Below are positions 2,453-10,740 of a stretch of 64,000 bases of DNA, piece by piece. The translations under genes and the position numbers were made by a program. The first letter of the stretch is position 1. The number at the start of each line of letters is the position of its first letter. The stretch spans positions 16,909,086-16,973,085 of the forward strand of contig JAOANR010000010.1 in assembly GCA_030278955.1 (NCBI GenBank), written 5' to 3'. Source of the stretch: Hygrophila difformis. Its lineage: Eukaryota > Streptophyta > Magnoliopsida > Lamiales > Acanthaceae. The notes beneath the pieces are model-generated. The model had not been told where the DNA came from. It saw only the letters and a program-made list of their open reading frames with translations, and made no database searches.

Positions 2453-4417
2453 TCAAATGCCCGTTTTAGACACGGAAATGGATTGAAAATAATGGTCATT
2501 TCTGGCCATTATCACATACCTTGACTTCCTAGCCATCATCTTTATTCTGTGCTTCTTAACAGGTTTCTCAGGCTCTTTTCCTTGTTGATTTTCCTCCTCA
2601 AGAACAGTTTCTGACTGTACTACCTTTTCAAGAGAGGGTTCTTTCTGTTTAGAGTGCAACTTTCCCTTTCTTTTGTAAATAACAACTTCCTTCTTTTCCT
2701 GAGATGGTTGTAATAACTCTTTATTTTCATCCATCAAATTCCTTGTTTCTGGAGTTCCTCCTTTTGAATCCATATCCTCCTTGAGTGTTACTTCATTTTT
2801 GTGTTTTCTCTTCTTAGAGGGTTGACTAGTCTTTCTAACTTCTTGTTCCTTTACTTTACTCCTACTTCCTCTTTTTTGTAGGACGAGAGGTGCTTCATCT
2901 GAAGAACTTGAATTAGGAGTAACTGGCTTTCTCTTTCGGGTGGATACTTTCTTCTTACCCTTCTCCTTTTGTTTTTCAGCTTGAATAAATTCTTCCCATT
3001 CTTGATCTCTCTTTTTCCAGTCTTTGTTAGTTTCATCAACAAAAGCCTGAAGATCATCATCTGTGCTAACCTCTTCAGGTTCTTTCTTCATATGGAAGTC
3101 TTTACCCCAACCTTTGAGTATCATGTTCATTCCCTTTCTTTTCAGATACTTCTCATTCCATGCATCCCAATCATCAATGATTACCTGCTGAATCCTTCCT
3201 TGTGCCTGATCAGTATAAACTCTATGTTCCTTATATGCATTTTCTCTGCACATACTGTCATATCGCATATACTTCTGTATGAATTCCTTTTTCCTATCCT
3301 CAACAAGTTCATGAACTTCTTGCTGGAGAGGTGGAGGTAATCTCTTCATGATCTTATTTCGTCTATCTGTAATGAGAAGATCTGCATCCACTGGTGTTAT
3401 TGCTGGGGCTGAAATCTTCCTGAAATTCTTTGTAGGTTCCAGTCCTTCCTTAATAACAGACTCTTTTAATATATTCCTGACTATGTTCTGTGGTGTCTGT
3501 TTTGCATCTGATCTCTGCTTCATGTTCTTCCCTGATCTCTCAGCTTCTCTCTCTTCTGCATCTTTAACCCATGCCTTCTGTTCAGGCATTAAATCAGCAA
3601 AATTCTCTTGTGGAAACTCTTCATCAGGTTTCCTTTCTAAACCTGGTCTAAGGATTCTTTTCTTAAGATTCTCTCCTTTAGCCCATTCATTCATATGTTT
3701 GATCCAGCTATTCCTAGCTTCCTGAATGGTTCTAAGAACATCTGTCCATACCATCTTGCCTTGTTTAGCTTTCTGAAAATAAGGCTCAAGGGCATGTCTC
3801 AAATTGATCCGAGCATCAATAATCCTATCCAAAGCCAGATTTGTCAAGAAATTTTGTTCAATCGGACCCTTCTTATTCAAGAATGCTGGAGGCATGTATG
3901 CAGGGAGTGCCTGCTGAGGACCATAAACTCGAGCATTCCGAATTTCGTGAAGTTTATAACAATATGTAGTAAGTCGTTTCACATATTTGGGCAATGGTTG
4001 AGGATCAAAGTAATCCAACTCCAATCCTATTTGATCCTTCGGGTTAATGATTGTATAACATTCCTGGTTCCATTCAGCCATACATTTCTTCTCCCTTTCC
4101 AGAAGTCTTTTAAGTCTAATTTCGTTGGGGAGATGTTTATCATTAATGAGGTTGATTATTTGATCTTCCCAGAATTTACTCATTCTATCCCAGAATGCTT
4201 CTTCTAAATCAATCTTCAATGATTCCTTCTCTTTATCAGGTATATGCTGAATCATCAATGGATTGACATAAAAGATTGGAGGTGAAATTTCCATTCCTAA
4301 CCATCCACCACTTTTCTGAATCTGTTTCACTATATCAATTGTTCTCTTACTTTTCCAAAATGATTGCTCCTTCTTGTCCGACTCAACACCTCGAGCCTTG
4401 AGTTCTTCATAAGTCAT
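2453..4417 (-). CDS. Accessory ORF654 of the Athila-A element, function unknown
   Basis: An uninterrupted 654-codon ORF that I do not recognise. The first two thirds is a mixed helical region rich in Trp, Lys and Glu, with short motifs such as PLMIQHIP, EWNQECY and ALPAYMPPAFLNKKG. The last third is low-complexity, highly charged and rich in Lys/Glu, with nuclear-localisation-like clusters (KKKVSTRKRKP, PSKKRKHK). I see no signal peptide or membrane segment, so it is not an obvious env protein. The natural C-terminus is lost: codons after about 634 (below 2515) are read from inserted LTR B. A splice-acceptor-like TTTTAG lies 10 bases before the ATG. It follows the F-box gene at 4760-5507 on the same strand. 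A second, broken copy exists at 45367-45634 plus 19760-20980. The reading frame is real and is preserved between copies as protein-like similarity; the function is unknown. Confidence 0.8.
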   Translation of the reverse strand: MTYEELKARGVESDKKEQSFWKSKRTIDIVKQIQKSGGWLGMEISPPIFYVNPLMIQHIPDKEKESLKIDLEEAFWDRMSKFWEDQIINLINDKHLPNEIRLKRLLEREKKCMAEWNQECYTIINPKDQIGLELDYFDPQPLPKYVKRLTTYCYKLHEIRNARVYGPQQALPAYMPPAFLNKKGPIEQNFLTNLALDRIIDARINLRHALEPYFQKAKQGKMVWTDVLRTIQEARNSWIKHMNEWAKGENLKKRILRPGLERKPDEEFPQENFADLMPEQKAWVKDAEEREAERSGKNMKQRSDAKQTPQNIVRNILKESVIKEGLEPTKNFRKISAPAITPVDADLLITDRRNKIMKRLPPPLQQEVHELVEDRKKEFIQKYMRYDSMCRENAYKEHRVYTDQAQGRIQQVIIDDWDAWNEKYLKRKGMNMILKGWGKDFHMKKEPEEVSTDDDLQAFVDETNKDWKKRDQEWEEFIQAEKQKEKGKKKVSTRKRKPVTPNSSSSDEAPLVLQKRGSRSKVKEQEVRKTSQPSKKRKHKNEVTLKEDMDSKGGTPETRNLMDENKELLQPSQEKKEVVIYKRKGKLHSKQKEPSLEKVVQSETVLEEENQQGKEPEKPVKKHRIKMMARKSRYVIMARNDHYFQSISVSKTGI

Positions 4418-4471
4418 TTTATGGATCCTAAAATAAATTAAGAGAAACTGATTAAATCAAATTCACCATCC

Positions 4472-4500
4472 TCACATTTAGAGTTTTGCTCTAAATGTGA
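4472..4500. repeat. Conserved hairpin 1 between F-box D and ORF654
   Basis: Perfect 12-base arms TCACATTTAGAG / CTCTAAATGTGA around a 5-base loop (TTTTG). The second element copy has the same stem at 45694-45722 with a different loop (TAGAA). Confidence 0.9.
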
Positions 4501-4569
4501 AGGTGTGAAAAGAGGACATAATATCAATTCTTCCTTCTTTATACTTATTTTTGCATGATATCACCATAC

Positions 4570-4598
4570 TCACATTTAGAGATTTGCTCTAAATGTGA
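4570..4598. repeat. Conserved hairpin 2 between F-box D and ORF654
   Basis: The same 12-base arms as hairpin 1 with loop ATTTG, about 100 bases away. The second copy at 45786-45814 is identical in stem and loop. Confidence 0.9.
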
Positions 4599-4759
4599 AA
4601 ATTTAAATGTTGATTAGATCTGCTTTAAGGAAGGAAATAGTACCAAAGTAATATTGAGAGAGAATGGACAAAACAAAACACATTTCAAAACATCATTCAT
4701 CAAATTCTTGCAAGTATCAGGAGATTACAAAATTCAGCGACTACTTCAACTCCCAGGTG

Positions 4760-8821: not shown

Positions 8822-9036
8822 TCGCTTTGTTTATTATAAGCGCGTGATCATATAAGATGTCCCTCGCTTTGTGAATTGATCAAAGCGAGGAAAATTTTCT
8901 ATGGTCTGTTTAAGAACTTGCTCACGCTTTATGAATCGATCAAAGCGTGAACAATTTATCCTCACACTAATATTTTTAATAATAAAGCGAGAAAAGAAAC
9001 TTCCTCCTCGCTTTATAAATTTTAACAAAGCGTGAG
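8822..9036. repeat. Palindrome array between pol and F-box A
   Basis: Three hairpins. CCTCGCTTTG / CAAAGCGAGG (8862-8890, perfect 10-base arms). TCACGCTTT / AAAGCGTGA (8922-8950, perfect). CTCGCTTT / AAAGCGTGAG (about 9007-9035, arms of mixed type). A half-site occurs at 8821-8830 and another near 9050-9090. The same motif family fills LTR A (16821-18420), although this stretch is internal to the element. Confidence 0.85.
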
Positions 9037-9275
9037 TTATTATACTTCAATCTCATCCACACTCTATTGATTCGAAACAAAGCGTGAGTACTTAGATTGA
9101 AAGATCAAAAACTTATAAAAATTTGTTCAATACTGAAGAACCTGATTGAAGAAATCCTTCTTTTCCCTTCTTAGTTCATCACAGTTTCATTTCTTGAAAT
9201 CTGAAAAAATACAAAAAGATAGAGAATTAGCAATAATCTTAAGAAAAAGGGAATACTACTCAGTTAACCTGGGTA

Positions 9276-9303
9276 GTACCCCACCCCCCTAATTTTTTTT
9301 TTT
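9276..9303 (-). other. Polypurine-tract-like run after pol
   Basis: On the minus strand a run of A is followed by TTAGGGGGGTGGGG, 16 bases after the pol stop codon. It resembles a plus-strand primer, but no LTR start (TG...) follows. It may be an internal (central) PPT or a relic of an ancestral 3' end before the accessory genes were acquired. Confidence 0.5.
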
Positions 9304-9318
9304 CAGAAATTCAGAAAA

Positions 9319-10740
9319 CTATGGATTATCCAAATATTCTGTTTGAATATTTAATTCTTGTTCACCAATATATTCTTTAAGCCTGTGTCCATTTACTGTC
9401 TTTTCTCCTTCATTAAGCATGATTGTGACGGCTCCATTGTCATGAACAGCTACAACGGGGAATGGTCCTGTCCACCTTGATCTCGCTTTCCTGGCAACAA
9501 TTTCAAACGAGAGTTATACAACAAAACCATCTGACCAACATAAAATTCTTTATGTTTTATTTTTGCATCATGAATTTTCTTGGTTCGATCTTTGTAAATC
9601 TTGCTGCTTTCATATGCTTCCAGTCTCATCTCTTCCAATTTAGACAGATCAAATTTTCTCTTTTCTTGTCCCAGCTGAACATCCATATTAAGCATCTTAA
9701 TGGCCCAATATGCTCGGTGTTCTAGCTCAACTGGAAGATGACAAGCTTTTCCAAAAACTAATCTGTAAGGAGACATTCCTATAGGAGTCTTAAAAGCAGT
9801 TTTGTACGCCCATAAGGCATCATCCAGTTTCTTTGACCAGTCTTTTCTTGTAACATTCATAGAAGCTTGCAAAATATGCTTAATTTCCTTGTTAGATACC
9901 TCCACTTGTCCACTTGTCTGAGGATGATATGGTGATCCAACTTTATGATGAACACCATATTGCTGAAGCAACTTCTCAAAGAGTTTATTCACAAAGTGAG
10001 ATCCTCCATCCGATATAATGGCACGAGGGGCTCCAAACCTAGTAAAAATGTTCTTCTGCAGAAATTTAGTAACTTGTTTAGCTTCATTGTTAGGCATAGC
10101 CACTGCTTCAACCCATTTTGAGACATAGTCAACAGCTACTAGAGTGTAGTGATTACCATATGAAGGGGGAAAAGGTCCCATAAAATCAATCCCCCAAACA
10201 TCAAATATCTCTACTTCTAAGATTCCTTTTTGAGGCATTTCTTCCCTCATTGAAATATTTCCCAATCTTTGGCACCTGTCACACATCTTTATAAGTTTCT
10301 GACAATCCAAAAAGATAGTTGGCCAAAAGAACCCACAATCTAGAACCTTTCTAGCAGTTCTAGCAGGGCCATGATGGCTTCCTAAAGGATTCTCATGACA
10401 TTTCCTAACAATTTGAAATCCTTCTCTCTCATGGACACAGCGTCTAATAACCTGATCAGAACAAAATTTAAATAAAAGGGGTCATCCCAATAGTATTTCT
10501 GAATTTCTCTGAAAAATCTTGACTTCTGATGAGAGTCTTTAAATTTTGGAACTATTTTACAAGCCAGATAATTAGCAAAGTCTGAAAACCAAGAACAATC
10601 AAATTGATGCAACTGCAAGGCATACAACTGTTCATCTAGGAATTTGTCATTTACAACTTCCTCCTTTTCTGTTTTCTCTTCCAGTCTTGAAAGATGGTCT
10701 GCTACTCCATTGTCTTTCCCTTTTCTGTCTTAATAATAAT
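9319..10740 (-). pseudogene. Athila-lineage integrase region of pol
   Basis: From about 10627 downward lies the RNase H-to-integrase linker (WFSDFANYLACKIVP). Then comes an HHCC zinc-finger region ending MCDRCQRLGNIS, then the catalytic core with GIDFMGPFPPSYGNHYTLV (first Asp), IISDGGSHF (second Asp) and the Glu in SNKEIKHILQ. The family position is typical of Ty3/gypsy integrase. A one-base frameshift near 9490 precedes the C-terminal domain (SRWTGPFPVVAVHDNGAVTI ... LDNP, stop at 9321-9319). There is at least one further break between 10310 and 10382. It would have inserted element cDNA; it is now dead by frameshifts. Confidence 0.85.

Follow-up and report, generated by a model that had tools for sequence, protein, structure and literature searches.

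Here we show that a cassette of four F-box genes followed by a long open reading frame (ORF) is, almost certainly, an integral module of a long terminal repeat (LTR) retrotransposon of Hygrophila difformis and is maintained by selection. The cassette was encountered in a stretch of 64,000 nucleotides (contig JAOANR010000010.1, positions 16,909,086 to 16,973,085), hereafter called the window, which its genes and their relatives mark as plant nuclear DNA. The full element, which by its domain order is classed below as Athila-like, measures about 22-23 kb and runs in the order 5' LTR, gag-pol, F-box A-B-C-D, long ORF region, Transposase_32 (PF20167) region and 3' LTR. In the window F-box A, B, C and D and then the frame called ORF654 lie downstream of integrase, all on the minus strand together with gag-pol. 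Such an arrangement of four F-box and tetratricopeptide repeat (TPR)-like genes with ORF654 had been described in the initial annotation, made from the letters of the window alone, and was recovered here at 8592-2453, with Pfam matches in the window and in another copy with open frames. The parts of the cassette are listed below with the evidence for each, where dN/dS is the ratio of nonsynonymous to synonymous substitution rates.

About 8592-8029, minus strand: F-box A, with one frameshift in the window copy; homologues in other copies.
7341-6642, minus strand: F-box B, with one frameshift in the window copy; weak Pfam match, selection tested.
About 6433-5727, minus strand: F-box C, with one frameshift in the window copy and a proposed splice acceptor (exon start 6433); Pfam, acceptor AG, dN/dS.
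5611-4760, minus strand: F-box D, an open frame with a proposed exon start at 5507; Pfam, acceptor AG, dN/dS.
4418..4760, minus strand: D-ORF654 spacer with two hairpins (TCACATTTAGAG...CTCTAAATGTGAG) and the ORF654 splice acceptor; folding, comparison of copies.
2453..4417, minus strand: ORF654, a truncated frame of which codons 1-634 come from the element and the final 20 from a foreign LTR; frame, LTR comparison, dN/dS.

Passive carriage of the genes would yield a dN/dS near 1. We determined dN/dS in 18 of 20 genome copies together with the window, two truncated copies having been dropped before counting; usable copies numbered 7 for F-box A, 13 and 14 for two segments of B, 15 and 12 for two segments of C, 16 for D and 18 for ORF654. 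Between two clades of the element the median dN/dS was 0.26 and 0.23 for the segments of B, 0.27 and 0.15 for those of C, 0.18 for D and 0.16 for ORF654, at a between-clade median dS of 0.67-1.73. F-boxes B, C and D as well as ORF654 are under purifying selection between the clades, and these medians speak against the passive capture of host DNA that the initial annotation had offered as one of two readings. Comparison of the two copies within the window itself gave dN/dS values of 0.126 over 446 codons of ORF654 and of 0.31 over 171 codons of F-box D. A separate argument from lesion rates, by which ORF654 and F-box D would be better preserved than gag-pol, was abandoned; it was borderline (0.048), depended on eight gag-pol lesions counted by hand and was superseded by the genome copies.

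The host assembly (915 Mb, 246 contigs) was searched with a 1,001-base piece of ORF654. Among 726 first-look candidates 40 were scored, and all of them matched, at 74-100%, and were spread over many contigs. Stretches of about 10 kb were fetched around 20 of the 40 scored copies, and presence of the F-box genes was counted at matches of 60 bits or more. F-box D was found in 17, C in 15, B in 14 and A in 13 of the 20 copies, and all four genes occurred in the same order in 12 of them. Each F-box gene showed 44-94% protein identity to its counterpart in the window (A being the lowest) as compared to 25-47% identity to the other F-box genes; thus, the four-gene set most likely predates the spread of the copies. 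Dozens of copies at least are confirmed for the family and there are probably hundreds, among them a recent insertion.

We examined the ends of four copies, and two of these are complete elements with perfect 5-bp target-site duplications (TSDs) and with the cassette between their LTRs. The copy designated C4 (25377044-25399279, 22.2 kb) is flanked by the TSD TTTTC and the starts of its LTRs are identical at 279/280 bases, while the C8 copy (16721345-16744703, 23.4 kb) is flanked by the TSD ATTAT. As for the other two, the C1 copy near 53.77 Mb has a 5' LTR broken at LTR position 807, and the 3' LTR match of the C2 copy near 35.22 Mb ends at position 3042, its 5' end not having been found in the 5' stretch that was checked. 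In the two copies with a measurable distance, 3.96 kb separate ORF654 position 633 from the start of the 3' LTR; in a third copy (C1 near 40.35 Mb) the 3' LTR starts 1.75 kb after ORF654 position 631.

The integrase query returned 2,607 first-look candidates, and all 40 that were scored matched at 93-100%. By coordinates, 6 of the 40 adjoin a listed ORF654 copy, the window's own included and one of them at 14 kb. From the other 34, five copies were sampled over the 5 kb behind each, a small sample of the copies most like that of the window. F-box A lay about 0.8 kb downstream in all five and B was present in four, while C and D were found within 5 kb in three, the other two being interrupted. 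That most elements lack the cassette, which the initial annotation had named as the finding that would overturn it, was therefore not borne out in this small sample. Its assignment of the cassette to the element family agrees with the 12 copies carrying all four genes in order, the two TSD-flanked elements and the five integrase copies with F-box A.

Pfam analysis of the window frames revealed TPR_27 (4e-11) and F-box-like (1.7e-5) in F-box D and TPR_27 (9.7e-8) in C; the F-box match of B was weak (0.02, under the cut-off) and the window frame of A gave no Pfam match. In another genome copy all four F-box frames are open and each matches F-box and TPR_27 families, some scores falling under the curated cut-offs. 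In that copy the F-box-like cut-off was reached by B and C and the F-box cut-off by B and D, with A just below; the F-box A frame of a further copy does reach the F-box-like cut-off. The core of the F-box motif is readable in all four genes. Protein database searches with F-box D and ORF654, limited to exact 5-residue words, revealed no relatives of either, and the same searches with the polyprotein gave thousands, many from plants. PDB sequence profiles matched at chance level only, and Rfam gave no match at its gathering thresholds. The unspliced frame of F-box D begins with a strongly hydrophobic stretch (5611-5507, hydropathy 2.7), which is probably an intron; otherwise, the product would be a membrane-anchored F-box protein.

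The proposed ORF654 acceptor (exon start 4427) is pyrimidine-rich, and its AG was kept in 18/18 comparable copies while the sequence of the tract varied. The AG before F-box C (exon start 6433) was kept in 10/10 and that before F-box D (exon start 5507) in 9/10. When a simple acceptor score was applied to the 555 AGs of the region, these sites ranked 5 (ORF654), 7 (C) and 15 (D), the best-scoring acceptor being that of the post-integrase region 8600..9320 (exon start 9200). The pattern suggests spliced sub-genomic mRNAs, most clearly for ORF654. The 5' introns before several of the ORFs had earlier been taken as a mark of host origin; they include splice acceptors conserved in the element copies and would fit sub-genomic splicing at least as well.

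In the hairpins of the D-ORF654 spacer, the 3' arm and its flank repeat the sequence that stands just before the 3' LTR. The longest exact run common to the two spacer copies of the window, 40 bases, is one of the two hairpins (0/2,000 column shuffles), and both spacers fold better than their shuffles (z of -3.9 and -5.0). The arm CTAAATGTGAG-N-ATGG was present in the spacer at 18 of 20 loci, the remaining two having no spacer, and in 3/3 seen the same CTAAATGTGAG-N-ATGG sequence occupied the polypurine-tract position immediately ahead of the 3' LTR. These spacers may contain spare plus-strand primer sites, or mark an old element end from before the long ORF was added.

Several observations weigh against a selected module that is native to the element and expressed from spliced RNAs. 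One of the C segments stands at a dS of 1.7, near saturation, and F-box A had no scorable between-clade pair, its median of 0.17 coming from 28 other pairs. One or more F-box genes were missing at 8 of the 20 fetched loci, several of which were cut by the end of the stretch, by truncation or by insertions. The complete C4 element shows no F-box B between A and C above 60 bits, so the full F-box set is not required for every insertion. The best integrase copies mostly (34/40) do not lie beside a listed ORF654 copy, that list comprising 40 of the 726 candidates. In the B-C and C-D spacers the proposed acceptors are equalled in conservation by many other AGs, and among the 18 AGs of the D-ORF654 spacer three others were also kept in 18/18, two of these being in a hairpin. 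A TATA-like site was seen for F-box A, and F-box B has, by eye, its own start exon and intron; such features would also fit if entire genes had been captured together with their promoters. Structure predictions (mean pLDDT, the predicted local distance difference test, of 42.7 and 43.7) were too poor for a fold check and were not used.

ORF654 is open in the window copy, and its frame contains an LTR of foreign origin, as listed below; ORF654 is, therefore, a truncated gene.

1..2514, minus strand: LTR of type L3_1, belonging to another, nested element and inserted in the ORF654 frame; alignment, DNA beyond the window.

This LTR extends past the window and is followed by a frame that stays open for at least 1,524 codons and by eye is gag-pol-like. 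Alignment of the LTR start, at 2514, with the start of the 5' LTR did not outscore the best of 100 shuffles, and over the whole length the similarity was weak (152 as compared to a shuffle maximum of 129). We therefore rejected L3_1 (2514 to 1) as the 3' LTR of the element itself, its alignment being at or near shuffle level and its sequence continuing into another element, and no LTR pair brackets the cassette within the 64-kb window. In the other copies the ORF654 frame runs past the break seen in the window, with copy-specific interruptions, towards the Transposase_32 (PF20167) region. All three frames scanned downstream of ORF654 in other copies matched PF20167 (E 5e-11 to 1.8e-13), two above the cut-off and one just below. 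ORF654 is thus the N-terminal part of a long ORF region leading to the PF20167 region. ORF654 itself had no Pfam match at all, hence no VANC-type domain by Pfam, VANC proteins themselves not having been compared. Codons 1-654, scored on the window frame, hold no hydrophobic span, the top 19-residue hydropathy being 0.86, which is not that of a transmembrane segment, while residues 481-540 are rich in lysine and arginine and strongly basic. The chain was predicted, with low confidence, to be mostly helical. A complete or envelope-like protein was rejected for ORF654, which the initial annotation had set in the env-like position, the frame being truncated by the LTR and its visible part being devoid of a hydrophobic span; of the reading of ORF654 with an adjoining LTR, the order of the cassette stood, and the complete gene and the LTR at 2514 as the element's own did not. 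Scans of viral contigs with ORF654 and integrase found nothing.

The remaining parts of the element in the window are as follows.

15249..18626, minus strand: 5' LTR of type L5_1, 3378 nt, TGATGACAG...TTTCA; start and end read from the sequence.
15232..15248, minus strand: primer-binding site TGGCGCCGTTGCCGGGG, directly behind the 5' LTR; 1 match in the window, 0.02 expected.
15083 to about 9322, minus strand: gag-pol polyprotein (GAG, protease, reverse transcriptase (RT), RNase H, integrase); tblastn collinearity, Pfam.
8600..9320, minus strand: post-integrase non-coding region with CTCGC/CACGC-TTTG inverted repeats; region also beside the cassette in other copies.

Full-length homologues of the 5' LTR are the 3' LTRs of two other copies (76%), and a TATA box lies at its position 586. 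The primer-binding site may pair with tRNA-Asp, the type of the Athila lineage. The polyprotein of the window has several frame breaks and stops, and by tblastn it is collinear with six polyproteins, of which three come from named plants. The order GAG-protease-RT-RNase H-integrase, which is that of Athila, was confirmed by Pfam in two collinear relatives, and in both Integrase_H2C2 follows directly after RNase H, with no second RNase H. An additional RNase H (aRH) is the mark of the Tat clade (accessible part of PMC6317226); the Tat lineages Ogre and Retand do not fit this element because it has none. Judged by domain order and the lack of aRH, the element is an Athila-like Ty3/gypsy retrotransposon, Athila being a lineage of the OTA superclade and the relatives of the polyprotein bearing no lineage names. 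The post-integrase region was also considered as a truncated 3' LTR and rejected, its local scores being within the shuffle range.

The window harbours a second copy of the cassette, in the following pieces.

45372..46531, minus strand: part of F-box D, spacer and start of ORF654; matches 4155-5310, 75%.
19878..20987, minus strand: middle part of ORF654; matches 3054-4159, 81%.
19274..19760, minus strand: LTR fragment of L5_1 type, brought next to ORF654 by a deletion; match with the 5' LTR at its 3' end, 69%.
20981..24776, plus strand: inverted LTR of type LB, inserted in the second ORF654 copy; its 3' part probably resumes near 44943-45368.

F-box D, ORF654 and LTR thus stand here in the order first reported, split by the inverted LTR (from 20981) and by further insertions up to about 45370. 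The fragment at 19274..19760 is a 3' (or solo) LTR, because no primer-binding site lies behind it. A second copy that ends in a fragment of the 5'-LTR type hints that the cassette lies upstream of the 3' LTR.

F-box proteins usually serve as substrate adaptors of SKP1-CUL1 ubiquitin ligases. Since selection has kept most of the F-box genes working, they probably serve the element in steering its host. As the best overall explanation, and one that we consider reasonably probable from the sequence evidence, the cassette would be a native accessory module under selection that acts via the SKP1-CUL1-F-box (SCF) ubiquitin ligase; that its F-box proteins are SCF adaptors acting on host proteins is, by a slightly smaller measure, also probable. 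In such a mechanism the LTR promoter would give rise to spliced sub-genomic mRNAs for the cassette genes, the F-box proteins would enter the host SKP1-CUL1 ubiquitin ligase, and their TPR-like part would bind chosen host (or element) proteins and lead these to degradation, so that host protein turnover would be redirected in favour of the element. With less certainty, the targets may include factors restraining the element, e.g. RNA-silencing or chromatin proteins. Silencing factors are attractive as a target because of the P0 protein of poleroviruses (PMC11371168, accessible part). By this analogy an anti-silencing purpose of the cassette is conceivable and rather doubtful. The same tentative standing is given to a multi-gene counter-defence locus, in which four diverged F-box/TPR adaptors, maintained by selection and made from spliced sub-genomic RNAs, would hijack SCF to eliminate more than one component of RNA silencing or chromatin control.

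Two other explanations accept that the proteins function and place the effect elsewhere; we regard both as unlikely, to a similar degree. The F-box products could be decoys with a dominant-negative effect, occupying SKP1 or a substrate without degradation and so blocking a host ubiquitin ligase. The F-box scores are modest, several being under the cut-off, four diverged paralogues could disturb several host ligases, and purifying selection is compatible with any protein function; the F-box core readable in all four genes fits working adaptors, a point that does not separate the two modes. Alternatively, the F-box proteins could remove or time proteins of the element, such as GAG or the PF20167 protein, rather than host factors. 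Here selection at the level of the element would suffice, the genes travelling with it and adjoining the PF20167 region, whereas no sign of a specific partner was seen and four diverged paralogues suggest several targets.

A single capture of F-box genes that were then carried along without function appears very improbable. It draws on the frameshifts of A, B and C in the window and on the complete element showing no B, and LTR elements are known to capture host genes (PMC7264820), a captured F-box gene being described from Thlaspi arvense (PMC8764390), both as far as the accessible text of these papers extends. It is at odds with median between-clade dN/dS values of 0.15-0.27 at a median dS of about 0.7-1.7 and with the copy having four open frames. 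A cluster of host F-box genes with LTR elements inserted around it, as the window with its missing LTR pair would allow when taken alone, can be practically dismissed: copies lie on many contigs, two TSD-flanked elements enclose the cassette and F-box A follows integrase in all five sampled copies.

Other features of the window were noted around the element. A fragment at 18627-19273, which by eye reads as Ty1/copia RNase H and 3' end, adjoins the start of the 5' LTR. Three highly similar LTR-like units with two internal regions between them (LTR-int-LTR-int-LTR) make up a tandem element at 27764-44942, which includes a 500-base run of N at 38191-38690, and a kinesin-like gene fragment was seen by eye at 53670-54137 on the minus strand. 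Three LTR types of the window (18626-15249 and 2514-1 on the minus strand, 20981-24776 on the plus strand) have a common layout, in which short inverted repeats containing CpG gather in two clusters, one at about +130 to +710 and the other at about +1354 to +2192 from the start of the LTR. Each type has its own word: TGTCGC occurs 23 times in the 2514-1 LTR and ATGCGG 25 times in the 20981-24776 LTR (shuffle maxima for the top 6-mer being 8 and 10), and the word CTCGC/CACGC of the 18626-15249 LTR is only marginal (top word 13 as compared to a shuffle maximum of 12). The layout of the clusters would thus appear to be conserved and the words exchanged, in a manner reminiscent of Sirevirus palindromes or VANC motifs.

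Among the open-access papers listed by our searches none dealt, judged by title and the opening of the abstract, with F-box genes that belong to an LTR retrotransposon. The accessible parts of PMC10673657 and PMC13310191 describe no F-box genes of this kind in LTR elements, and the word F-box is absent from a 2026 review of gene capture (PMC13317346). In the present element four accessory genes of recognisable type and a long ORF are kept together, all but one shown to be under selection between clades. If host proteins are indeed what the F-box proteins act on, accessory functions like those of complex retroviruses would exist in plant retrotransposons, and the escape of such elements from silencing would be open to ordinary SKP1-binding and protein-turnover assays. 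A counter-defence locus, if real, would be to a retrotransposon what the accessory genes are to complex retroviruses.

The known systems are compared here as the accessible parts of the cited papers describe them. Among plant LTR retrotransposons, Athila, Bagy2, SIRE, Retand and Ogre carry extra ORFs between pol and the 3' LTR; they resemble the present element in the sense position of these ORFs, long LTRs and long non-coding regions. Their extra ORFs are env-like, Transposase_28, plant mobile domain or Athila ORF-1 (PMC7264820, PMC11963269, PMC6317226), whereas here there are four F-box genes and a long ORF, most of them under selection; such ORFs have been called heterogeneous and their function doubted (PMC6317226). 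In Thlaspi arvense an F-box family gene is likewise associated with an LTR retrotransposon as an 'LTR-gene'; by description it is a single captured gene that underwent tandem duplication, in contrast to the repeated module of four F-box genes seen here (PMC8764390). The P0 protein of poleroviruses is also an F-box protein of a parasitic element in plants and sends AGO1 for degradation; compared by description, P0 is one viral protein with known AGO targets, and the cassette has four F-box/TPR_27 proteins (PMC11371168). With regard to the LTR motif clusters, the VANC/VANDAL system has comparable family-specific short motifs in non-coding parts, although VANDAL is a DNA transposon with motif arrays in one orientation (PMC5735166), while the motifs here are inverted repeats in LTRs, known from sequence. 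Sirevirus LTRs likewise have clusters of short palindromes in their regulatory regions (Bousios 2016, via PMC10760457), Sireviruses being Ty1/copia elements and the LTRs here Athila-like Ty3/gypsy. The nearest parallel is an orchid Ty3/gypsy element with an AlkB-type RNA demethylase, which is also large (25 kb) and carries a host-type accessory domain whose suggested role is to counteract control by the host (PMC9289625). The orchid element has one enzyme gene, active in vitro (PMC9289625), whereas the element described here carries four genes of ubiquitin-ligase adaptor type, known from their sequence.

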